In this document: positions 20,061 to 29,994 of the stretch, one piece after another
How the letters are laid out: the number at the start of each line of letters is the position of its first letter
Position numbering within the stretch: the first letter of the stretch is position 1
Assembly (NCBI GenBank): GCA_003221035.1
Contig: QHUB01000054.1
Location: 1 to 40,567 of the forward strand
Source of the DNA: Gemmatimonadota bacterium
Lineage (GTDB): Bacteria > Gemmatimonadota > Gemmatimonadetes > Gemmatimonadales > GWC2-71-9
Length of the DNA: 40,567 bases
Reading direction: 5' to 3'
Program-made: the position numbers and the translations under genes
The notes under the pieces: model-generated
Told to the model about the DNA's origin: nothing
The model's input: only the letters and a program-made list of their open reading frames with translations
Databases searched by the model: none

Positions 20061-21301
20061 AGCTTCGCCACCCGGTGCGACAGGACCTCGACGCCCGCCG
20101 GAGTCACCATGCAATCGTCTTCGATCCGCACGCCGAACTTCCCGAGCTGATAGATCCCCGGTTCGTCGGTAAAGACAATCCCCGGCTCGAGCACCATCGC
20201 GTTGCCTTCGACCATGTACGGCGGCTCGTGCCCATCCATGCCCATCCCGTGGCCGAGGCGATGGGTGAAGAACTGTCCGTACCCGGCGTCGGTGATGACC
20301 TTCCGCGCCGCGCGGTCGACCTGCTGGCATTGCGTGACGCCCGGCTTCGCGTTTTCAATCGCCGCGGTCTGCGCGTCGTGCACCGTGTTGAAGACCTTCT
20401 TGAATTCATCCGACGGCGCGTCGCCGAACCAGATCGTGCGGGTGATATCGGACGTGTAGCCCTCGACGCGCGAGCCGGCGTCGATCAGCACCACCGTTTC
20501 CTTCGTCAGCCGGCCCGCCGACGGCCCGCCGTGCGGCAGCGCGCTGGATTGTCCGAACTGGACGAGCCCACCACCCGGCGAGTTGCGGCTCGCCATCTCG
20601 CGCGACAACAAGGCCGATACGTCGCGCTCGGTCATGCCCACCACGAGCTGCGCGAACGTCGCCGCAATCGAGGCTTCCGTGGCCGCGATCGCGGCGCGGA
20701 TCAGGGCGATCTCCTCGGGACTCTTGATGATGCGCAGCCGCTCGGTGACGGCGGTGCCGTCGCGCGGGATCCAGCCCCGTACCTTGGTCGTGAGGCGCAC
20801 GTAGCTCTGATAGGAGGTCGTCGGTTCGACGGCCACTTCGCCCTCGCGACCACGTGGCTTCAGCTCCTGGGCGGCCTTGGCGACGAGCACCCAGGGATCT
20901 TCCTGCTCTTCCCACCCGCGCGCGTCCGTGATCGTGGTGTTGCGCTTGATGCGCTCGACTTCGAACGACGGGCACACGATCACCGGAGCGCCGGTCACGG
21001 GAATCATCAGCAGAATCAGCCGCTCGCTCCGCCCCGGATTGTAGCTCGTGAAGTACTGGAAATTCGTGCTCGGCTCGACGACCAGCAGATCGAGCTGGCG
21101 AGTCTTCAGCTCTTCTTGGGCTCGTTGGATCCGTTGAGCGAAAACCTGGGGGCTCAGGGTGGGATTCTGTGAATGCGCAATGCGGAATGCGGAATGCGAA
21201 ATGGGCTGGGCGAGTCCATTTCGCATTTCGACTTCCCCGTTTCGCATTGTGGTCCCCACCGCAACCGCTCCCGCCACCGTCAAGAACTCGCGTCGTTCCA
21301 T
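20057..21301 (-). CDS. Exported M24-family Xaa-Pro dipeptidase/aminopeptidase
   Basis: 414-residue pita-bread metallopeptidase (M24B) removing residues next to proline. The five metal ligands are visible: two Asp in LIDAGSRVEGYTSDITRT, His in HRLGHGMGMDGHEPP, Glu in FTDEPGIYQ and Glu in VRIEDDCMV. The N-terminal creatinase-like lobe is also present (NFQYFTSYNPGRSERLI). The start MERREFLTVAGAVAVG is a twin-arginine-type signal, suggesting Tat export of the folded enzyme. Between signal and catalytic part, residues 17-45 are encoded by an AATGCG-type repeat (peptides MRNG, HSAFRIAHS) and probably form an unstructured linker. The stop TAG overlaps the convergent aminotransferase TAA within CTAA. 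Confidence 0.92.
   Translation of the reverse strand: MERREFLTVAGAVAVGTTMRNGEVEMRNGLAQPISHSAFRIAHSQNPTLSPQVFAQRIQRAQEELKTRQLDLLVVEPSTNFQYFTSYNPGRSERLILLMIPVTGAPVIVCPSFEVERIKRNTTITDARGWEEQEDPWVLVAKAAQELKPRGREGEVAVEPTTSYQSYVRLTTKVRGWIPRDGTAVTERLRIIKSPEEIALIRAAIAATEASIAATFAQLVVGMTERDVSALLSREMASRNSPGGGLVQFGQSSALPHGGPSAGRLTKETVVLIDAGSRVEGYTSDITRTIWFGDAPSDEFKKVFNTVHDAQTAAIENAKPGVTQCQQVDRAARKVITDAGYGQFFTHRLGHGMGMDGHEPPYMVEGNAMVLEPGIVFTDEPGIYQLGKFGVRIEDDCMVTPAGVEVLSHRVAKL
21170..21249. repeat. AATGCG-type short repeat cluster in the M24 peptidase signal region
   Basis: Tandem near-copies of GGAATGC/GCGCAATGC at 21173-21202, then inverse copies CATTTCGCATTT. A perfect 12-bp inverted repeat joins AATGCGAAATGG (21193-21204) to CCATTTCGCATT (21216-21227) around an 11-base loop. 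The element is wholly within the M24 peptidase gene, near its 5' end, and keeps the frame open. Confidence 0.7.
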
Positions 21302-21352: not shown

Positions 21353-21868
21353 ATGCATTTCGAAGCACGCATCGAACCGCTCGGCGGCAAGCTTCCCAAG
21401 GTCACGTACCGCTGGGATCCCGAGACCGACATCCTGACCGTCGCCTGCAAGGGCGTGCCGAAAGGAAACGGGATGGACGGCACCGTGGATCTCGAAGGCG
21501 GGGACGGCTCGTTTGTCGTGATCGACGTCGCGGGCGGCGCGCTGCGCGGCATTGACGTCGTCACGTGGCCGGAAGATGTGCGTACCCTCGCGTCGCTCGC
21601 GGCACCCGAAGCATCGAAAGAAGGGCAAGTGACGTTCCCCAATCGACGCTCGCAGCCCGACGTCGCCGCGGTGGAGCTCGACACCTCGCTCACGGTGGAC
21701 AAAAACCAGGCGGAATCGGTGTTTCACATCTGCGTTGGTCGCAAGCGCGCCGCGACGGTCGTGCGCGTGGCGGATCACATGCTCGTGGAAATCGACAAGC
21801 AGCACCGCATCGCGGGACTGTGGCTGCTGGACGTCCCGCCGTTCCCCAACGTCGAAGCCACGGCGTAG
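21353..21868 (+). CDS. Small protein with two DUF2283-like lobes
   Basis: 171-residue cytoplasmic hypothetical protein, no signal or membrane helix. The start at ATG 21353 (MHFEARIEPLGGKLPK) is preceded by GAGGAAGG, and the open frame upstream is only the repeat region. It has an internal duplication. Lobe 1 (YRWDPETDILTV to GGALRGIDVV) and lobe 2 (ELDTSLTVDKNQ to DKQHRIAGLWLLDV) both follow the strand pattern of DUF2283-like domains, in which an aspartate-rich strand is followed by D-x-x-x-x-x-G-hydrophobic. The stop TAG overlaps the GTG of the methyltransferase (TAGTG). It heads the operon leading to nurA-herA-sbcDC. Function unknown. Confidence 0.75.
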   Translation: MHFEARIEPLGGKLPKVTYRWDPETDILTVACKGVPKGNGMDGTVDLEGGDGSFVVIDVAGGALRGIDVVTWPEDVRTLASLAAPEASKEGQVTFPNRRSQPDVAAVELDTSLTVDKNQAESVFHICVGRKRAATVVRVADHMLVEIDKQHRIAGLWLLDVPPFPNVEATA

Positions 21869-22506
21869 TGGACGAGCGATTCGAGCGCTACGTCACCGAG
21901 CTGTTCGCCGCTGAAGACCCGATTCTCTCCAAAATCCGCGCTCGTCACGCCGCCGAGCAGCTTCCCGCGATCAACATCTCCCCGGAGGAGGGGAAGCTGT
22001 TGTTCGTGCTCCTGCACGCGATCCAGGCGAAGCGGGTGCTGGAGATCGGCGCGCTCGGCGGCTACAGCGGCGTCTGGCTGGGTCGCGCGCTGCCCGCGGG
22101 CGGGGAGCTGATCACGATCGAGAAAGATCCCAAGCACGCGCGCGTCACGCGCGAAGCGTTCGACATGGCGAAGCTGCACGGCCGAGTGCGTCTGATCGAA
22201 GGTGCGGCGCTCGACGTCCTCCCCACGCTCGTGCCCGGCTTCGATGCCGTCTTCATCGACGCCGACAAGGAGCCGCTGCCCAAATACTTCGTTTGGGCGA
22301 TGCAGCTGCTCAGAGTGGGCGGGCTGCTCCTGTGCGACAATGCGTTCTTCCACGGCGCGGCCATCGATCCAGGCGACACGTCGGGCAACGCGGTCGGCGT
22401 CCGCAAGTTCAACGAGCTCGCCGCCAAAGACCCGCGGCTTGCCGCGACGATCGTTCCCGTGCGCGATGGACTGGTGGTCGGCGTCAAACTGAGAGACACC
22501 GCATGA
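21868..22506 (+). CDS. SAM-dependent O-methyltransferase (Methyltransf_3 / CCoAOMT-like)
   Basis: 212-residue class I methyltransferase. SAM-binding motif I is VLEIGALGGYSGVWLGRALP, acidic motif II ITIEKDP, then FDAVFIDADKEPLPKYF (metal/catalytic Asp region) and LLRVGGLLLCDNAFFHG, the pattern of cation-dependent catechol or caffeoyl-CoA O-methyltransferases. GTG at 21868 overlaps the upstream TAG, and its stop TGA overlaps the nurA ATG. Members usually methylate a small phenolic. Why it is coupled to DNA end-processing genes is unclear and may be chance operon packing. Confidence 0.9.
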   Translation: MDERFERYVTELFAAEDPILSKIRARHAAEQLPAINISPEEGKLLFVLLHAIQAKRVLEIGALGGYSGVWLGRALPAGGELITIEKDPKHARVTREAFDMAKLHGRVRLIEGAALDVLPTLVPGFDAVFIDADKEPLPKYFVWAMQLLRVGGLLLCDNAFFHGAAIDPGDTSGNAVGVRKFNELAAKDPRLAATIVPVRDGLVVGVKLRDTA

Positions 22507-23474
22507 CCTGGTGGCAGGCGCTCATCCACGCGGGCGCCGTCGCGGCCACCGGAGGCCGGCGTGACGATGTAGAACAGACCGAGCAGGGGACTGCCGAGCT
22601 GGTCGAAGACGCGGAGCTGCAGGCGCATCCGATTCCCGAACCCCGAATCCCGAGCGCCGCTTCCTTCCTCAACGGCATCGAGCGGTGGAGCGTCGTCGCC
22701 TATGACGGCGTCGTGCAGATCGTGAATGCACATGTCGCGGCCGCGGTGTGCCGCCGAGATCGGCAAGGTGTTCTTCACACGACGGGCGAGTTGCATCGCA
22801 GCTTTGCGCTCGCGCCACTCAAGCGCATGAGCGCGGCAATGCGTCAGAAACTCGAGCAGTCCTGCGCCGATATCGAGCCCGTCGAGGGCGATCTGGTCGA
22901 GCAGCCGGCGCGCTATTTGGAGATGATCGAGTCTACGGTGCGAAAGATTCGCGCCCATCACGAACGTGAGCTCGCGGAGGAAGCCATCCGCGATTTGGGC
23001 GAGGAGGAGTGGCTGGTGCTCGACGGCCGCCTCTCGCGCTCCCCCGCCATCGCGAAACACCCACGGATCCTCGGCGCAATAAAAAGCCACGGCGCGCAGT
23101 TTTTGGAAGGACGAGGACTTGAACGCGCGTTGACGCTGCCGGCCGGTCATAGGACGAGCGTGTTCCTCGTCCGGGGCGGGCACACGCGCACGGAGGTGTA
23201 CTCCTGGTATCTCCGGCTCTGGCCCTGGGAAGGCAACGATCTGCTGTACGGGTTACTACGCATCGAAGCGCGCGCCGATCCGGAGACCGTCCGGCAAGCC
23301 GCGGCATTGAGCGGGTGGTTGTGGGCCGAGCGCGCGCCGCTCGCCACGCCGGCCACACGCTGGGACCGGCTGTTGTATCCTTTACACCACGTGGAAGCAT
23401 ACCTGAACGCCCGCGCTCCCCGAGATCTGCCGTCGCGCCGCGCGTCCTCCCGCCTACCGAGACTCGCGTCGTGA
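22503..23474 (+). CDS. nurA: NurA-domain nuclease
   Basis: 323-residue protein with the NurA layout. An N-terminal strand with a D-G pair (D68 in VVAYDGVVQ) is followed by a helical middle region. A second conserved block LVLDGRL (D174) and HPRILGAIKSHGAQFL come next, then the aromatic strand SWYLRLWPWEG, LLRIEA and the C-terminal YPLHHVEAYLNARAP. NurA is a 5'-3' exonuclease/endonuclease that acts in a ring complex with the HerA translocase to resect DNA ends. The gene immediately downstream, joined by a GTGA overlap, is a HerA-type ATPase, which strongly supports the call. The start is the ATG at 22503 overlapping the methyltransferase stop; the frame is open further upstream. A CCCGAATCCCGA-type repeat at 22631-22652 is translated as part of IPEPRIPS. 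Confidence 0.8.
   Translation: MTWWQALIHAGAVAATGGRRDDVEQTEQGTAELVEDAELQAHPIPEPRIPSAASFLNGIERWSVVAYDGVVQIVNAHVAAAVCRRDRQGVLHTTGELHRSFALAPLKRMSAAMRQKLEQSCADIEPVEGDLVEQPARYLEMIESTVRKIRAHHERELAEEAIRDLGEEEWLVLDGRLSRSPAIAKHPRILGAIKSHGAQFLEGRGLERALTLPAGHRTSVFLVRGGHTRTEVYSWYLRLWPWEGNDLLYGLLRIEARADPETVRQAAALSGWLWAERAPLATPATRWDRLLYPLHHVEAYLNARAPRDLPSRRASSRLPRLAS
22631..22652. repeat. CCCGAATCCCGA-type short repeat within nurA
   Basis: GATTCCCGAACCCCGAATCC followed by CG: two and a half copies of a CCCGAAYC unit, translated in frame as part of IPEPRIPS near residues 44-50, before the first conserved NurA block. It may be a remnant of an interspersed repeat, or simply chance Pro-rich coding; the copy number is low. 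Confidence 0.4.
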
Positions 23475-25414
23475 ACGCGCCTGCCATCGGTCGCGTTGTC
23501 GCGACTGAGCTCAAGCCCTCGACACCCCACGAATTCCATTTCTGGACCGCAACCGAGACGTCGATCGGGATCGGGGCGATTGTGAAGGTGGTCGGGACGC
23601 CCCTACATGACCGAATCGTCTACGGTGTCGTGACCGAGGGGTTCGCGTACTCTGATCTCGCAACGCCGCTGCACGACGTCGTCGGGGCCGAGGGTGATCC
23701 GACCAGCGCGGAGGCGCCGACGGCCCGTCAGCAGATCCGCTACTGGACGGCCGCCGTCCTGCGGCAGACGCCAGAAGAGCCGCTGCAGCCCGTCCCGCTC
23801 GGTCAGGTCTACGTGGCCGGCGACGCGGATGTCGCGCAGGCGCTGCGCATGGACGCTTTTCTTTATTCAGCGACGCCAACCGCGATCCCCGTCGGCCTGT
23901 ACACGTCGGGCGGACGAGAGGCGCCCGTCTATCTCGACGCCGACTTCCTGCTCGGCCCCGAAGCGGCGCACCTCAACATCTCGGGCGTCTCAGGGTTAGC
24001 GACGAAGACGAGCGCCGTCGAGTTCCTGCTCGCGTCCATCTTCGCGCACTTTCCCGCGCACAAGGGCCGCATCGCGGCCGTGTGCTTCAACGTCAAGGGT
24101 TCGGATCTCTGCTTTCTCGATCAGGCGGGCGATCTGAATGATGAGGATCGCCACCGCTACGACGCGCTCCAGGTGCCGGCGCAGCCGTTCAAGCGCGTGC
24201 AGTTCTACGCGCCGTACAAGTCGGACGGCGTCAATCTCAACACGCTGCGCACGCATCCCGATCTCGTCGGCGACGTCGAGCCGCTGACGTGGGGACTGCA
24301 GGAAGTCGTCGATTTCGCGGAAGTGTTGCTCAATCGTGACGACATCGACGCCAAGGCGGACGCGTTTATCGATTTCTTGAGAGACAGAGTCCTCGGCAGA
24401 ACGTTCGATGACGGCTTCGGCACTACGCATCGCGTCACGACATTCGCCGATCTCGACCGGCTGTTCCGGTCGATCTTCGACGGGCTCGAGATCACGGCCG
24501 GCGGGCGCAGCGACACCTGGCGGACCCATCACATCGCGACGATGCGCAAAGTCCGCAACCGGCTCCTGAATATCTCCACGCGTTGCAAAGGCCTCGTCAC
24601 CGACGACGGGCCGTCGAGCGATCTGCCGTGGAAGGAATTCGCGGACCGGACGGTCTACGTAATCGACATCGCGAACGTCGACCCGCTCGGGCAGGACCTC
24701 GTGTTCGCGCGCGTCGTGTCGAAGCTGCGCGAGCAGCTCGAACGCCGTGAGCTCGGCGTGGACGCCGTTGTCGTGTTCGTGGACGAGCTCAACAAGTACG
24801 CTCCCGGCGACGGCCCCGATACTTACGTCAAGAAAATGCTGCTCGATATATCCGAGCGCGGGCGGTATTTGGGACTCGTGCTGTTCGGCGCGGAGCAGTT
24901 CCGGTCGCAGGTACACCGGCGCGTCGTCGGGAACGCGGGAACGCAACTCTTCGGCCGCATGGACATGGACGAACTCGCGACGCCGGGGTATCAGGTCCTC
25001 AGCCCTGCCACCAAAAGCAAGCTGGCGACGTTGCCGATCGGGGAGTTGATGGTTCGGCACCCGCATTTCACGCAGCCGATCTTCGTGCGCTTTCCCAGGC
25101 CGCCCGTGCTGAGAGGGCGGGATGGGGTCGGGCGCTTCCCGCCTGCGGAGGACGTGCCGTTCGACGATGCGGTCGTGCGGCAACTGGTACGGCTGGACCG
25201 GCGCGTGCGGCCCAACCAGGTCAAGGACCTCATTGCGGATCGCGAGCAGGACGACGTGCGTCGAGCGCTCGCCGCGGTCCGGCGCACACGCCCCGACGAC
25301 GCGTTCGCCTATTTCCGGAAAGTGCTCGGCGGCCGCGTGGAGCCCGATGCCGCGCTGCGGCGCGAGCACGAAGTGGTGCCGCCGCTCAATCCGATCTCCG
25401 ACGAGCCGTACTGA
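23471..25414 (+). CDS. herA: HerA-like ATPase (DUF87 / FtsK-HerA superfamily)
   Basis: 647-residue hexameric DNA translocase expected to drive NurA. The N-terminal part (GRVVATEL to YGVVTEGFAY) is a HAS-barrel-like beta domain. The P-loop region GVSGLATKTS (G172-S181) has the GxxG..xKT layout but a Thr, not Gly, before K179. Walker B is VVVFVDELNKYAP (D438, E439), and AGTQLFGRMDMDELA supplies the distal motor region. The C-terminus DVRRALAAVRRTRPDDAF is charged. GTG at 23471 overlaps the nurA stop (GTGA), and its stop overlaps the sbcD start (TGATG). Sequence alone supports HerA/DUF87 ATPase; partnership with NurA is inferred from adjacency and known biology. Confidence 0.85.
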   Translation: MNAPAIGRVVATELKPSTPHEFHFWTATETSIGIGAIVKVVGTPLHDRIVYGVVTEGFAYSDLATPLHDVVGAEGDPTSAEAPTARQQIRYWTAAVLRQTPEEPLQPVPLGQVYVAGDADVAQALRMDAFLYSATPTAIPVGLYTSGGREAPVYLDADFLLGPEAAHLNISGVSGLATKTSAVEFLLASIFAHFPAHKGRIAAVCFNVKGSDLCFLDQAGDLNDEDRHRYDALQVPAQPFKRVQFYAPYKSDGVNLNTLRTHPDLVGDVEPLTWGLQEVVDFAEVLLNRDDIDAKADAFIDFLRDRVLGRTFDDGFGTTHRVTTFADLDRLFRSIFDGLEITAGGRSDTWRTHHIATMRKVRNRLLNISTRCKGLVTDDGPSSDLPWKEFADRTVYVIDIANVDPLGQDLVFARVVSKLREQLERRELGVDAVVVFVDELNKYAPGDGPDTYVKKMLLDISERGRYLGLVLFGAEQFRSQVHRRVVGNAGTQLFGRMDMDELATPGYQVLSPATKSKLATLPIGELMVRHPHFTQPIFVRFPRPPVLRGRDGVGRFPPAEDVPFDDAVVRQLVRLDRRVRPNQVKDLIADREQDDVRRALAAVRRTRPDDAFAYFRKVLGGRVEPDAALRREHEVVPPLNPISDEPY

Positions 25415-26619
25415 TGAAGCTCGCCCACCTCGCCGACCTGCACCTGGGCTTCCGCCAGTTCGACCGGCAGACGTCGAGGGGGATCAACCAGCGCGAGTGG
25501 GACATCGCCGAAGTGTTCAAGCGCGCGGTGGACGACATGTTGGAGCAGAAGCCCGATCTGATCGTCATCGCGGGCGACATCTTCCACTCTGTTCGCCCCA
25601 CCAACGCCGCGATTCTGTTCTTCTTCCGCGAGCTGCACCGGCTGCGCACGGGATTACCGCAATCGCCCGTGGTAGCGATTGCGGGCGAGCACGACACGCC
25701 GCGCTCGACCGAGACCGGCACGATCCTGCGGCTCTACGAAGCGCTCGGCGTCGAGATCGCGATCGAAGAAGCGCGCCGCATCGTGTTGCCGACGCTCGAC
25801 TGCGCGGTGCTGACCGTGCCGCAACAGGCGCTGGCGAGGGCCGATCGTCCCGCGCTGCGGCCGGAGGCCGGCGGACCGACGATCAATGTTCTGGTCACGC
25901 ACGGCGTCTATGGCGGCCTCGGTGAAGAACGCGGCACCGTGGAATACGGCGGCGCCGCGCTGTCGCGCGAATTGCTCGCGCCCGAGAAGTGGGACTACAT
26001 CGCGCTCGGCCACTACCACACGGCGCAGTCGATCGCCGCGAATGCCTGGTACTCGGGCAGCCTCGAGTACCTGCCGCCGAATCCGTGGGGCCAGCTACAG
26101 GATGAAGCCGCGCAGCGCGCGGCCGGAAAGAGCAAGAAGGAGAGGAACGGGAAGGGCTACCTGCTCGTCGAGCTTCCAGGCGCGCGCGTCACGTTCCGGC
26201 CGATCGCGCCGGCGCGCCGGCACATCGACCTGCCGCCGATTCAGGCGGCGGGGTTGAACGCCAAGGAGCTCGACGCGCAAATCGCCGAGCGCGTCGCGGC
26301 CGCCAAGATCGACGATCAGATCGTGCGGCTGCTGGCGTGGGACGTGGACCGTGCCACGTCGCGCGACCTCGATCACGCGGCGATCCGCGCGTACAAGGCC
26401 CGCGCGCTGAACTTCCAGCTCGACCTGCGCCGGCCCGAAGCGCAGCGAGCGACCAGCAACGCCGGATCGAGTGGCACGCGTCGCCAGACTCTGACCGAGA
26501 CGGTGCGCGATTTCCTCGGCCGCCGGCCGCTCGACGCCGAGTTGAACCGCGAGACATTCGTGAAGCTGGGCGTGGAGTACCTCGAGAGCGCCGCGAGTGC
26601 GGAGAGCGGAACCGCGTGA
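25414..26619 (+). CDS. sbcD: Mre11/SbcD-family DNA repair phosphodiesterase
   Basis: 401-residue calcineurin-like nuclease, the Mre11 homologue that processes DNA ends with Rad50/SbcC. Metal motifs in order: HLADLHLG (D8, H10), AGDIFHS (D55, H58), AGEHDTPR (91-97), VTHGVYGG (H163) and ALGHYHTAQ (H200, H202). The third motif is normally GNHD; here Glu92 replaces the metal-binding Asn. The remaining ligands are intact, so the protein may be active with altered metal geometry. A C-terminal ~120-residue segment should carry the capping and Rad50-binding regions. It starts one base into the herA stop (TGATG) and ends overlapping the sbcC GTG (GTGA). Confidence 0.92.
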   Translation: MKLAHLADLHLGFRQFDRQTSRGINQREWDIAEVFKRAVDDMLEQKPDLIVIAGDIFHSVRPTNAAILFFFRELHRLRTGLPQSPVVAIAGEHDTPRSTETGTILRLYEALGVEIAIEEARRIVLPTLDCAVLTVPQQALARADRPALRPEAGGPTINVLVTHGVYGGLGEERGTVEYGGAALSRELLAPEKWDYIALGHYHTAQSIAANAWYSGSLEYLPPNPWGQLQDEAAQRAAGKSKKERNGKGYLLVELPGARVTFRPIAPARRHIDLPPIQAAGLNAKELDAQIAERVAAAKIDDQIVRLLAWDVDRATSRDLDHAAIRAYKARALNFQLDLRRPEAQRATSNAGSSGTRRQTLTETVRDFLGRRPLDAELNRETFVKLGVEYLESAASAESGTA

Positions 26620-29045
26620 AGCTGCAACGCCTGCGGCTCGTCAACTTCCGCCAGCATGCCGACACCGAGATCGTGTTCGGCGACGGCATCACCGGCATCA
26701 TCGGACCAAACGGCTCCGGCAAGACCTCGCTGCTCGAAGCGATCGCCTGGGCGGTGTACGGCAATCCCGCCGCGCGCGGCGACAAGGACTCGATCCGCAA
26801 CCTGCGGGCCAAGGCGCGCACATCGGTGCGCGTCGAGCTCGAGTTTTCCCTCGGCAACCATTCCTTCCGGGTGGAGCGCGGTCTCAACAACGCCGAGCTG
26901 TACCAGGACGGCGTGGTGGTCGCCAACTCGCTCAAGGAGGTCACGGGGCGGCTGCAGCGCGTGTTGGGCATGACGCACGCCGAGTTCTTCAACACCTACT
27001 TCACCGGTCAGAAAGAGCTGGCCGTCCTCGCGGATGCCTCCCGTCCCGAGCGCGCGGCGTTTCTGTCGCGCGTGCTGCGCCACGAGCAGCTCACCGTCGC
27101 GCAAGAGAAGATCCGCGAGCGCCGCAACGGGCTCGACCACGAGGTCGAAGGACTCGAAACGGGCCTGCCGCCGCAGTCGGAGATTGAAAAGGAGCGCAAG
27201 GCGGCCGAGGCGCGCCTCGCCGAGGCGCGCAAGGCCGCGGCCTTGGCGGCCTCGGCGCGGGCCAAGGCGCAGGAGCTGCTCGCGGAGGAAGAGCCGCGCT
27301 GGCAGCAGATGGTCGAGCGGCGCGATCGCACGCTGTCGCTGCATGGCGATCTGCGGGTGGCGGAGGCGGCGGTAGTGTCCGCTCGCCAGGAGTTTCAGCG
27401 CCTCGACAAAGAGCTCGCGGCCGCGCTCGGCGCGCGCGAAGAGCTGCGCGGCCTGGAAGCGACGGTTGCGCCCATCTCCAGACTGAAGGCCGAGCTGGCC
27501 GAGCTCGACCGGTTGCATCGGGAAGACGCCGCGCGGCGTGAGGAGCAGGCGAAGCTGACCGAGCTCACGCGCAACCTGCACGTGCTCGATCGCCGCATAG
27601 CGGAGCTCGCCGACGCCGAGGGCGGGCTCGCGCGCGCCAGCAAGGAAACGCGCGCGCTGGCGGCGAAGCTCGAAGCGGCGGAGAAGCAGGTCGAAGAGCA
27701 GCAAGCTGTTTGGGTGCGCGAGAAGGAGTACGCGGGCACCAAGCGCGCCGAGCTGCTCAAGCAGTACGATGAAGTGAAGGATCACCGCGACAAGATCGAG
27801 CGCCTGGGTCCCGAAGGAGAGTGTCCGACCTGCCGCCGGCCGCTCGGCGACGAGCATGCGACGGTGATCGGCGTGCTCGACCGGCAGCTGCTGGCGATCG
27901 TGGACGACGGCACATATTTCCGGCAGCGGCTCGAGCAGCTCGCGCAGCCTCCCCCGGCCGTCACCCAGGCGGAGACGGCGCGCGATGTGCTGCGCGAGGA
28001 GGCGCGGCAGGCGAGCGATCGCGAAGTCACGCTGCGCGAGCAATCCCGGGAGTCGGCCCGCATCCAGAAAGAGCGCGCCGGCCTCGCGAGACGCACCGAA
28101 GAGATCGAGCGACGCGTCGCGGCGCGGGATGCCGGGTACAATGCCGAGCGGCACAACGAAGTCCGTACCGATCTGGCTCGGCTCGAGCCCGTCGCCCTGC
28201 AGGCGGCGGCGCTGGCGGGGCGCGCCGATCGCGCGGAGGCGCTGGTGAGCGAGGCGGAAATCGCCGAGAAGACGCTGTCGGCGCGGGAGGAGCATGTCCG
28301 GCAGCTCGCCGACGCGGTGAAGGCGCAGGGCTTTTCCGAGCCCAAGTTCCAGGCGGCGCACGAGCGTCACGACCGCGCCGCGCACACATTACGAGCGGCT
28401 GAGCTGGCCGTCGCGGAGACGCGCGGTGAGCTGGTCGCGGCTGAAACGGCCGTCCGTGAGGCGCAGCGCCGGGCCACCGAGCGCGCCGCGCGCGAGCGCA
28501 CGATCGCCGAGCGGAAGATCGAGTACCGGCTGCACAACGAGTTGGATCGCGCCTTCTCGGATTTGCGCGCCGACCTGAACGCGCAGATGCGGCCGGAGAT
28601 CAGCGCCCTGGCGTCGGGCTTCCTCTCCGATCTCACGGATGGGCGCTACGATGAGGTAGATCTGGACGAAGACTACCGCGTGGTCGTGCTCGACGAAGGA
28701 GTGCCGAAACCGGTGATCTCGGGCGGGGAAGAGGACATTGCGAATCTCGTGTTGCGGCTCGCGATCTCACAGATGATCGCCGAGCGCGCCGGCCAGCCGC
28801 TGTCGCTGCTCGTGCTCGACGAGATCTTCGGCTCGCTCGACGAATCGCGCCGCGGCCACGTGCTCGCGCTGCTGCGCCGGCTCGGGGACCGCTTCCCGCA
28901 GGTCATTCTCATCACCCACATCGAGCAGGTGCGCGACGGGCTCGACCGCGTGATCCGCGTCGCTTACGATGCGACGAGCGGCTCGAGCGTCACGCGCGAC
29001 GACACGGCTACCCTGGGAGCGCCCGATGCGAGCGTGGCTGCCTGA
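26616..29045 (+). CDS. sbcC: Rad50/SbcC-family ATPase with zinc hook
   Basis: 809-residue SMC-like ATPase that clamps DNA ends with SbcD/Mre11. The N-terminal head has LRLVNFRQHADTEI and P-loop GPNGSGKTS (K36). A Q-loop region (YFTGQKELAVL) follows, then long Ala/Glu/Arg-rich coiled coil to the zinc hook CPTC (C403, C406) at the exact midpoint, then the returning coil. The signature is SGGEEDIANLVLRLA (S702) and Walker B is LLVLDEIFGSLDESRRG (D735, E736). At ~810 residues it is nearer to archaeal Rad50 than to the longer E. coli SbcC. The GTG start overlaps the sbcD stop; a longer open frame upstream overlaps sbcD and is not used. Confidence 0.95.
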   Translation: MKLQRLRLVNFRQHADTEIVFGDGITGIIGPNGSGKTSLLEAIAWAVYGNPAARGDKDSIRNLRAKARTSVRVELEFSLGNHSFRVERGLNNAELYQDGVVVANSLKEVTGRLQRVLGMTHAEFFNTYFTGQKELAVLADASRPERAAFLSRVLRHEQLTVAQEKIRERRNGLDHEVEGLETGLPPQSEIEKERKAAEARLAEARKAAALAASARAKAQELLAEEEPRWQQMVERRDRTLSLHGDLRVAEAAVVSARQEFQRLDKELAAALGAREELRGLEATVAPISRLKAELAELDRLHREDAARREEQAKLTELTRNLHVLDRRIAELADAEGGLARASKETRALAAKLEAAEKQVEEQQAVWVREKEYAGTKRAELLKQYDEVKDHRDKIERLGPEGECPTCRRPLGDEHATVIGVLDRQLLAIVDDGTYFRQRLEQLAQPPPAVTQAETARDVLREEARQASDREVTLREQSRESARIQKERAGLARRTEEIERRVAARDAGYNAERHNEVRTDLARLEPVALQAAALAGRADRAEALVSEAEIAEKTLSAREEHVRQLADAVKAQGFSEPKFQAAHERHDRAAHTLRAAELAVAETRGELVAAETAVREAQRRATERAARERTIAERKIEYRLHNELDRAFSDLRADLNAQMRPEISALASGFLSDLTDGRYDEVDLDEDYRVVVLDEGVPKPVISGGEEDIANLVLRLAISQMIAERAGQPLSLLVLDEIFGSLDESRRGHVLALLRRLGDRFPQVILITHIEQVRDGLDRVIRVAYDATSGSSVTRDDTATLGAPDASVAA

Positions 29046-29994
29046 AGCGCGCGTCACCGGCCCGGAGCCGGCGGTCGAGCGCGACATCGACGCGCTGAAT
29101 CGCGTGTTCGCCGAGGCATTCACGGACCGGTATCGTCGCGACGGGTTGATCGGCGTGCGCGTGCCGCAGCTCAATCCGCTGGTCTGGCGCTACGCGCTGC
29201 TCGACGCCGGTGCTGGCGCGATGGTGTGGCGCGACGAGCATGGCGACATCGCCGCGTTCAACGTCGCGCACCAGGCGGGGAGCGAAGGCTGGATGGGGCC
29301 GCTCGCGGTGCGTCCCGACCGCCAGGGCACCGGGATCGGCAAGACGATCGTGCGCACCGCGGCGGACTGGCTGATCGACCGCGGCGTCACGACGCTCGGT
29401 CTCGAGACGATGCCGCGCACGCCGGAAAACATCGGCTTCTATGCGCGGCTGGGGTTCAGCCCCGGCTTCCTGACCGTGACGCTCACCAACGAGATCGCGA
29501 CGCGCGGGCATCCCGCGCCGGCGCTGCTGTCGCGCCGCAATGGCGACGACAAGGAAGCGGCGATGACGGCCGCGCGGCGCCTGCTGAGCGCGCTCGTCTC
29601 CGGCATCGACTTCTCGCGCGAGATCATGCTCACGGCCGAGCTCGGCCTGGGCGACACGTCGCTCGTGGACGGCCAGGACGGGCTGGAGGCGATCGCGGTG
29701 TGGCACTCGGCGCCGCTCGCCGACAGCCGCACGCGCGACGAAGTGCGCGTGCTGAAGCTCGCCGCGGTCAGCGATGCCGCGTTCGACGCCGCGATCAGCG
29801 CGGTCGAGGCGGCGGCGGCGAAAGCGGGGATCCGCCGGATCGCGGTGCGGTGCCAGAGCCGCTACGCCGATGCCTTCCGGCGGCTGATCGCGCGCGGCTA
29901 TCGCGTGCGCTGGACCGATTTGCGGATGACGTACGAAGGCTATCCGGAGCGGCAGGCCGCGCCGGGTGTGCTGTTTTCGAATTGGGAGATCTAG
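29026..29994 (+). CDS. GNAT-family N-acetyltransferase, two-lobed
   Basis: 323 residues. The N-terminal half is a GNAT domain with the acetyl-CoA loop VRPDRQGTGIGKTIVRTAADWL (motif A, R/Q-x-x-G-x-G/A pattern) and the motif B region TPENIGFYARLGF. The C-terminal half (EVRVLKLAAVSDAAFD to RLIARGYRVRWTDLRMTYEGYP) resembles a second, less conserved GNAT lobe. The ATG at 29026 lies inside the last 20 bases of sbcC, with GGGAGC upstream, so it is translationally linked to it. The substrate is unknown; GNATs modify amines on small molecules, proteins or peptides. It ends the plus-strand operon and converges on the small membrane-protein ORF 12 bases away. Confidence 0.85.
   Translation: MRAWLPEARVTGPEPAVERDIDALNRVFAEAFTDRYRRDGLIGVRVPQLNPLVWRYALLDAGAGAMVWRDEHGDIAAFNVAHQAGSEGWMGPLAVRPDRQGTGIGKTIVRTAADWLIDRGVTTLGLETMPRTPENIGFYARLGFSPGFLTVTLTNEIATRGHPAPALLSRRNGDDKEAAMTAARRLLSALVSGIDFSREIMLTAELGLGDTSLVDGQDGLEAIAVWHSAPLADSRTRDEVRVLKLAAVSDAAFDAAISAVEAAAAKAGIRRIAVRCQSRYADAFRRLIARGYRVRWTDLRMTYEGYPERQAAPGVLFSNWEI

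Follow-up and report, generated by a model that had tools for sequence, protein, structure and literature searches.

The archaeal herA-mre11-rad50-nurA operon, known from Sulfolobus and Pyrococcus and credited with the trimming of broken DNA ends, co-encodes the same four functions as a gene cluster (nurA, herA, mre11 and rad50; 22503-29045) that we analyzed in a Gemmatimonadota bacterium, on a 40,567-nucleotide stretch of contig QHUB01000054.1 (the window). The source sequences are nevertheless of bacterial type: archaeal NurA structures fit the source NurA model more poorly (Z 15.4 and 13.1), and the HerA profile barely extends to archaeal HerA. NurA-HerA of Deinococcus radiodurans (7f6d, 7wrw) comprises the same protein types, with the same Walker A form GxSGxATKTS and a NurA Z of 20.1. 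However, this pair is encoded without Mre11-Rad50 in its operon, and the source differs at D53 of NurA, where it has N, and at R495 and R552 of HerA, neither of which is conserved. In Oceanithermus profundus, a published bacterial instance, the SbcD and SbcC genes lie downstream of HerA (PMC5448004). That is one case, whereas the source set spans several phyla and has altered nuclease sites in one genus. The source Mre11 and Rad50 are homologues of SbcD and SbcC, but SbcCD is usually encoded without NurA-HerA, and the metal motif is changed in the source Mre11. Finally, RecBCD and AddAB have the same inferred job, the processing of double-strand ends for RecA. They consist of unrelated proteins, were not detected in the source genome, and occur in most relatives that lack nurA-herA.

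Most work on bacterial NurA-HerA concerns Deinococcus and Thermus, in which the mutants have puzzling phenotypes; in Thermus the genes lie apart from Mre11-Rad50. What bacterial NurA-HerA does becomes directly testable in a large group of bacteria that keeps the four genes together and usually lacks RecBCD/AddAB. We propose, with a probability of about 0.6, that the operon encodes an end-processing machine that replaces RecBCD/AddAB in this lineage, that its own cutting is probably crippled in the source genus, and that it serves there as a motor that binds DNA ends on behalf of another nuclease, for example RecJ. Mre11-Rad50 would bind and tether the broken end, and the HerA hexamer would pump the duplex through the NurA dimer in an ATP-driven manner. 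One strand would normally be cut, leaving a 3' tail for RecA, so that in the lineage as a whole the four-gene complex would do the job of RecBCD/AddAB. In the source genus the complex would be an end-binding, translocating or unwinding engine that itself cuts little or not at all, and a separate nuclease such as RecJ would do the cutting.

A linked set of bacterial-type proteins

The four genes lie on the forward strand: nurA (22503-23474, 323 aa), herA (23471-25414, 647 aa, GTG start), mre11/sbcD (25414-26619, 401 aa) and rad50/sbcC (26616-29045, 809 aa, GTG start). The original prediction placed them there, joined by GTGA, TGATG and GTGA overlaps, and direct reading of the open reading frames (ORFs) confirmed these at the nurA/herA, herA/mre11 and mre11/rad50 junctions, respectively. 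The window is an entire contig of a 3.36 Mb draft genome that is 98.7% complete. In a genome of such size, three additional single-copy genes would fall by chance within 7.5 kb on the same strand with a probability of about 1e-8, and the cluster is seen again in other phyla.

Three of the protein identities were borne out directly. HerA matched D. radiodurans HerA (DrHerA, 7f6d, chain 7f6d_B) with E 3.5e-44 in phmmer and carries the same Walker A variant, GVSGLATKT. Its ATPase residues are intact (Walker A K179/T180, D212, Walker B D438/E439; the DrHerA reference residues are K175/T176 for Walker A, D487/E488 for Walker B and D220 for the catalytic acid). By profile and motifs the protein is a bacterial HerA, and hexameric translocase activity is predicted. 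Mre11 contains a phosphoesterase domain (Pfam Metallophos, 1.7e-13) and has matches to Mre11 and SbcD in the PDB. Rad50, a zinc-hook SMC-like ATPase (SMC_N 2.4e-21, AAA_23, SbcC_Walker_B), has its Walker A, CPTC zinc hook, SGGE signature and Walker B all intact.

NurA was reached through its family. Pfam and NCBIfam scans of the source NurA and HerA singly gave nothing useful; NurA alone had no Pfam match, and phmmer returned noise only. A profile built from 30 NurA orthologs matched D. radiodurans NurA (DrNurA, 7f6d_H) with E 1.2e-20 and TmNurA (1zup) with E 3.2e-9, and 6 of the 30 orthologs matched Pfam NurA (PF09376). The AlphaFold model (mean predicted local distance difference test score 88) has an RNase H-like nuclease fold. 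DrNurA is its best structural match, followed by TmNurA (Z 18.9), SsoNurA (15.4), the TdpAB complex and P. furiosus NurA (13.1), and the top ten structural rows are exclusively NurA or TdpAB chains. By family profile and modelled fold, the 22503-23474 protein is a NurA homologue, as had been predicted, though not necessarily an active nuclease. Its "two DG blocks" exist as literal strings (YDG 67-69, LDG 173-175), but YDG is not part of the catalytic block, which reads FLDG in relatives and FLNG (N57) in the source protein.

The set had been described as archaeal-type and unusual for a bacterium, and neither description held. A bacterial HerA profile matched DrHerA with E 2.8e-179; further chains bearing the name HerA or ATP-binding protein followed with E of at least 5e-11, and T. 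kodakarensis HerA was matched weakly (E 2e-4). The nearest proteins to the source HerA and NurA are those of Deinococcus and other bacteria, and in a tree of 99 HerAs, all non-archaeal, the source HerA family forms a long branch among the bacterial rows. "Archaeal-type" fits the gene set, not the protein type: judged by their sequences, the proteins are bacterial-type and not archaeal imports. The set itself was found in several bacterial phyla, as described below.

Altered active sites in both nucleases

The four-gene set is of a known kind with a little-described bacterial distribution. What is new here, as read from the alignments, is a change in the active sites of both nucleases in the source genus, which the original prediction missed. 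In NurA, the AAC codon at 22671-22673 encodes Asn57. This residue aligns with D73 of the tagged DrNurA chain, which is the catalytic D53 once the 20-residue tag is subtracted; the offset was checked on chain K221 (K201), which falls on the conserved KSH lysine. In DrNurA, the D53A mutation abolished nuclease activity without significant effect on the ATPase of the complex (PMC9960219). Six of nine members of the source genus have N at residue 57, two have A and one has D. Beyond the genus, all 31 other Gemmatimonadota rows carry D, as do 67 of 68 external rows; the one exception is a gap. One of the members with Ala at 57 (G200) also carries K194N. The remaining catalytic positions of the source protein (E154, D174, K194 and H196) are intact. 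An apparent deletion of the K194 region in the NurA of G194 was rejected, as the assembly has a stretch of N at this gap.

In Mre11, the metal-ligand set is incomplete. Motif III reads GEHD instead of GNHD, with Glu92 (codon 25687-25689) at a position that is Asn in nearly all relatives; the other eight positions checked are intact. Glu92 occurs in the same eight genus members that have N or A at NurA residue 57, and the member with D57 retains Asn92. The 27-row clade around the genus has N, E, D, T, Q or H at residue 92 and H, G or D at residue 200 (GHYH). On the HerA tree (49 rows), positions 92/200 switched between intact and changed states at least seven times, and no such change was seen in 68 external clusters. 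Asn84 of P. furiosus Mre11, which we take from the alignment to be the equivalent of residue 92, binds manganese. The source protein is a Mre11 homologue by sequence, of doubtful nuclease activity.

The ATPase motifs of HerA and Rad50 are unchanged wherever they could be read among relatives. Within the genus, the ratio of nonsynonymous to synonymous substitution rates (dN/dS) was 0.12-0.25 for nurA, 0.03-0.06 for herA, 0.06-0.13 for mre11 and 0.07-0.13 for rad50, with dS near saturation in some pairs. In neighbouring genera with an intact D57, nurA gave 0.17-0.31; nurA of the altered genus is no more relaxed than this. A tentative reading, to which we give somewhat less than even odds, is that a complete four-protein machine has been kept under purifying selection after both nucleases lost a catalytic metal-site residue, and that it would now be a motor and tether built around pseudo-nucleases and served by an outside nuclease. 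The natural nuclease-site variants within one genus provide a ready test of whether selection keeps the motor and tether and not the cutting.

The same residues bear on another explanation, that of an ordinary, fully active resection machine in which Asn57 and Glu92 are tolerated or compensated by neighbouring residues. The intact E154, D174, K194 and H196 of NurA and the eight other intact Mre11 positions would agree with it, as would the undiminished purifying selection on nurA and the intact sites in most of the phylum. We nevertheless find it unlikely. The NurA position corresponds to D53 of DrNurA, at which the Ala mutant is dead (PMC9960219), and two genus members have precisely Ala there, one of them with K194N in addition. 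Moreover, replacement of Mre11 Asn92 by E, D, T, Q or H within the clade does not resemble one tolerated conservative swap.

Distribution and proposed exchange with RecBCD/AddAB

We sampled 200 Gemmatimonadota genomes, grouped in this analysis into families of which f1, f2, f3, f5 and f9 are referred to here. HerA of the source kind was found in 131 of the 200, and in 100 of the 112 sampled genomes of families f1 and f2. In these two families the order nurA-herA-mre11-rad50-GNAT has persisted across large distances, so that the four genes form a real conserved set, as predicted, and not genes at random unlinked places. Family f5 has a more Deinococcus-like HerA, often in the order herA-mre11-rad50-nurA, and family f9 has the genes scattered in part. 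A scan of the whole collection returned at least 565 relatives from outside the phylum, and all four genes lay on one strand in 39 of the 49 loci with full flanks. The order nurA-herA-mre11-rad50 was seen in Cyanobacteriota, Chloroflexota and Deinococcota, herA-mre11-rad50-nurA in Actinomycetota, and the four-gene set also in individual draft genomes labelled as Pseudomonadota or Bacteroidota. The loci of Thermus and Meiothermus contain nurA-herA only, unlinked to mre11-rad50. The gene orders R-H-M-N (two loci) and H-R-M-N (L071) were rejected as artefacts of nearest-hit choice or ORF start.

The single case of O. profundus, nurA-hepA-sbcD-sbcC, in which sbcD and sbcC lie downstream of a bacterial HerA, was read as local recruitment (PMC5448004). 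Given the spread across phyla, an old association or a repeated re-association of the four genes is more likely than local recruitment. A literature search, which covered few subscription papers, found no paper describing the wider bacterial distribution of the four-gene set.

Relatives without HerA show how the set is divided. In 15 of them nurA is absent genome-wide, while mre11-rad50 is kept in at least 14, together with the GNAT gene where the contig reaches it; no Mre11 was detected in G195. Because NurA is missing from these relatives together with HerA while mre11-rad50 stays, nurA-herA behaves as one unit that is gained or lost beside an mre11-rad50-GNAT core. NurA was not detected in a few HerA-positive genomes (G012, G018 and G029), indicating that HerA can persist without NurA. 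HerA-Mre11-Rad50 loci without detectable NurA were also observed in several f1 genomes (L064, L066, L067 and L050).

The suggestion that the operon replaces AddAB/RecBCD fits the source genome. Statements about this whole genome come from targeted searches, and these found no PDDEXK_1 nuclease and RecB matches at UvrD level only, hence no detectable RecBCD/AddAB. With classes assigned from profile scores and frame lengths (RecB, RecC, RecD, AddA and AddB being confirmed for examples), RecBCD or AddAB was present in 10 of 12 HerA-negative and 26 of 100 HerA-positive genomes of f1 and f2 (Fisher p 1.7e-4), a comparison that is phylogenetically clustered, with six HerA-negative genera only. Counted per genus, 4 of the 6 HerA-negative genera had RecBCD or AddAB, and the mean for HerA-positive genera was 0.25. 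Weak PDDEXK_1 matches in long frames were RecB adjoining RecC and RecD (NCBIfam). This pattern supports a functional exchange between nurA-herA and RecBCD/AddAB. The exchange is not universal, since family f5 has AddAB-like proteins alongside HerA and three f3 genomes have neither nurA-herA nor RecBCD/AddAB.

Besides the clustering of this comparison, several points weigh against a replacement machine that hands its ends to another nuclease. The NurA change at residue 57 is a single event on the tree, and a weak or altered form of metal binding may persist with Asn or Glu at the changed sites. The pore arginines R495 and R552, which are important in DrHerA, correspond in pairwise alignment to G446 and T504 of the source HerA, which suggests a different DNA grip. 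RecJ is present in the source genome, and D. radiodurans HerA stimulates RecJ, a stimulation opposed by NurA (PMC4663267). A HerA-binding C-terminal domain like that of DrRecJ was looked for on the source RecJ and is absent. Therefore, the RecJ route is only a candidate, and given the presence of Ku in the genome, end joining is another possible fate of the ends. In Deinococcus and Thermus, the resistance of nurA/herA mutants to damage is modest or improved (PMC9960219), so that bacterial NurA-HerA may restrain resection rather than perform it. A study of T. kodakarensis also doubts end resection by HerA-NurA (PMC12977600).

These mutants lead to the view of the operon as a negative regulator of recombination, in which the complex would occupy ends and limit RecJ/RecQ-type processing, and the loss of cutting would complete the role. 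Such a restraint was proposed for D. radiodurans, where nurA/herA deletions raise resistance to mitomycin C and ultraviolet light and DrNurA blocks the HerA stimulation of RecJ (PMC9960219, PMC4663267), and the conserved ATPase parts next to lost nuclease ligands would agree with it. We consider it improbable here. The absence of nurA-herA goes with the presence of RecBCD/AddAB, which suggests a substitute activity and not a brake. Moreover, the Thermus and Meiothermus loci are unlinked to Mre11-Rad50 and may be a poor guide.

Phage defence had also been suggested. In an anti-phage or anti-plasmid system, HerA-NurA would degrade invading DNA ends and Mre11-Rad50 would sense them. Copies of the four genes do occur on plasmids of cyanobacteria, Chloroflexota and Streptomyces, and two of these copies have TIR/HEPN or Wadjet-like and ImmA/IrrE genes nearby; TdpAB chains are also among the matches of the NurA model, and an antiviral role was suggested for T. 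kodakarensis HerA-NurA (PMC12977600). In Gemmatimonadota, however, this suggestion is without support: the operon is syntenic and near-universal in f1 and f2, unlike mobile defence loci, and the absence of nurA-herA correlates with repair genes. NurA and HerA had no PADLOC match, and Rad50 matched only the SMC-like ATPase models of several systems. Defence is the least likely explanation in this phylum, and a very remote one. The replacement of RecBCD/AddAB by an end-processing machine remains the reading that we prefer.

The two plasmid copies are L074 (Streptomyces NZ_CP134205.1) and L072 (Chlorohelix NZ_CP128402.1), with Wadjet-like genes (TIGR02680, TIGR02678, DUF2397), ImmA/IrrE, TIR and HEPN genes near them. 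These neighbourhoods hint that the set may serve defence or plasmids outside Gemmatimonadota. Two phage records, L075 (Marinitoga camini virus 1) and L076 (fecal phage contig MT836743.1), have nurA-herA without mre11-rad50.

Flanking genes and minor observations

The operon is flanked by two further overlapping genes on the same strand, as predicted. A class I O-methyltransferase (21868-22506; Pfam Methyltransf_3, 4e-41) shares ATGA with nurA at 22503-22506, and a GNAT acetyltransferase (29026-29994; Acetyltransf_1, 1.8e-13) has its ATG at 29026, a 20-base overlap with the end of rad50. Both had been suggested as possible accessories. GNAT lies directly downstream of rad50 in both HerA-positive and HerA-negative relatives and is a constant partner of mre11-rad50 in f1-f3; it is tied to these genes, not to nurA-herA. 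The O-methyltransferase adjoins nurA in few other genera and is mostly a genus-level neighbour.

Gene content varies elsewhere around the set. In the f5-type loci L055, L109 and L119, a second rad50/sbcC-like gene lies just upstream of herA. Many relatives, though not the source, have a secreted-protein-like ORF of about 275-325 aa between herA and mre11, with no Pfam match (L040:9623-10576; L034:6565-7545). Upstream of the operon, a 171-aa protein encoded at 21353-21868 belongs to no Pfam family, and genomes without nurA have a protein of similar appearance immediately before herA (L064 7066-7575; L067 6766-7350). Also upstream, at the start of an M24 peptidase ORF, a short run of AATGCGG heptamers at 21172-21203 comprises three overlapping matches against 0.05 expected. 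Finally, a CCGATTCCCGAACCCCGAATCCC repeat-like stretch lies inside nurA at 22629-22651, just upstream of the FLNG codons. Longer GGGTTGGGGATTGGGG-like stretches occupy the same nurA linker of a sister genome (L263, about 8330-8190), a pattern such as the invasion of the nurA coding sequence by a small repeat would leave.

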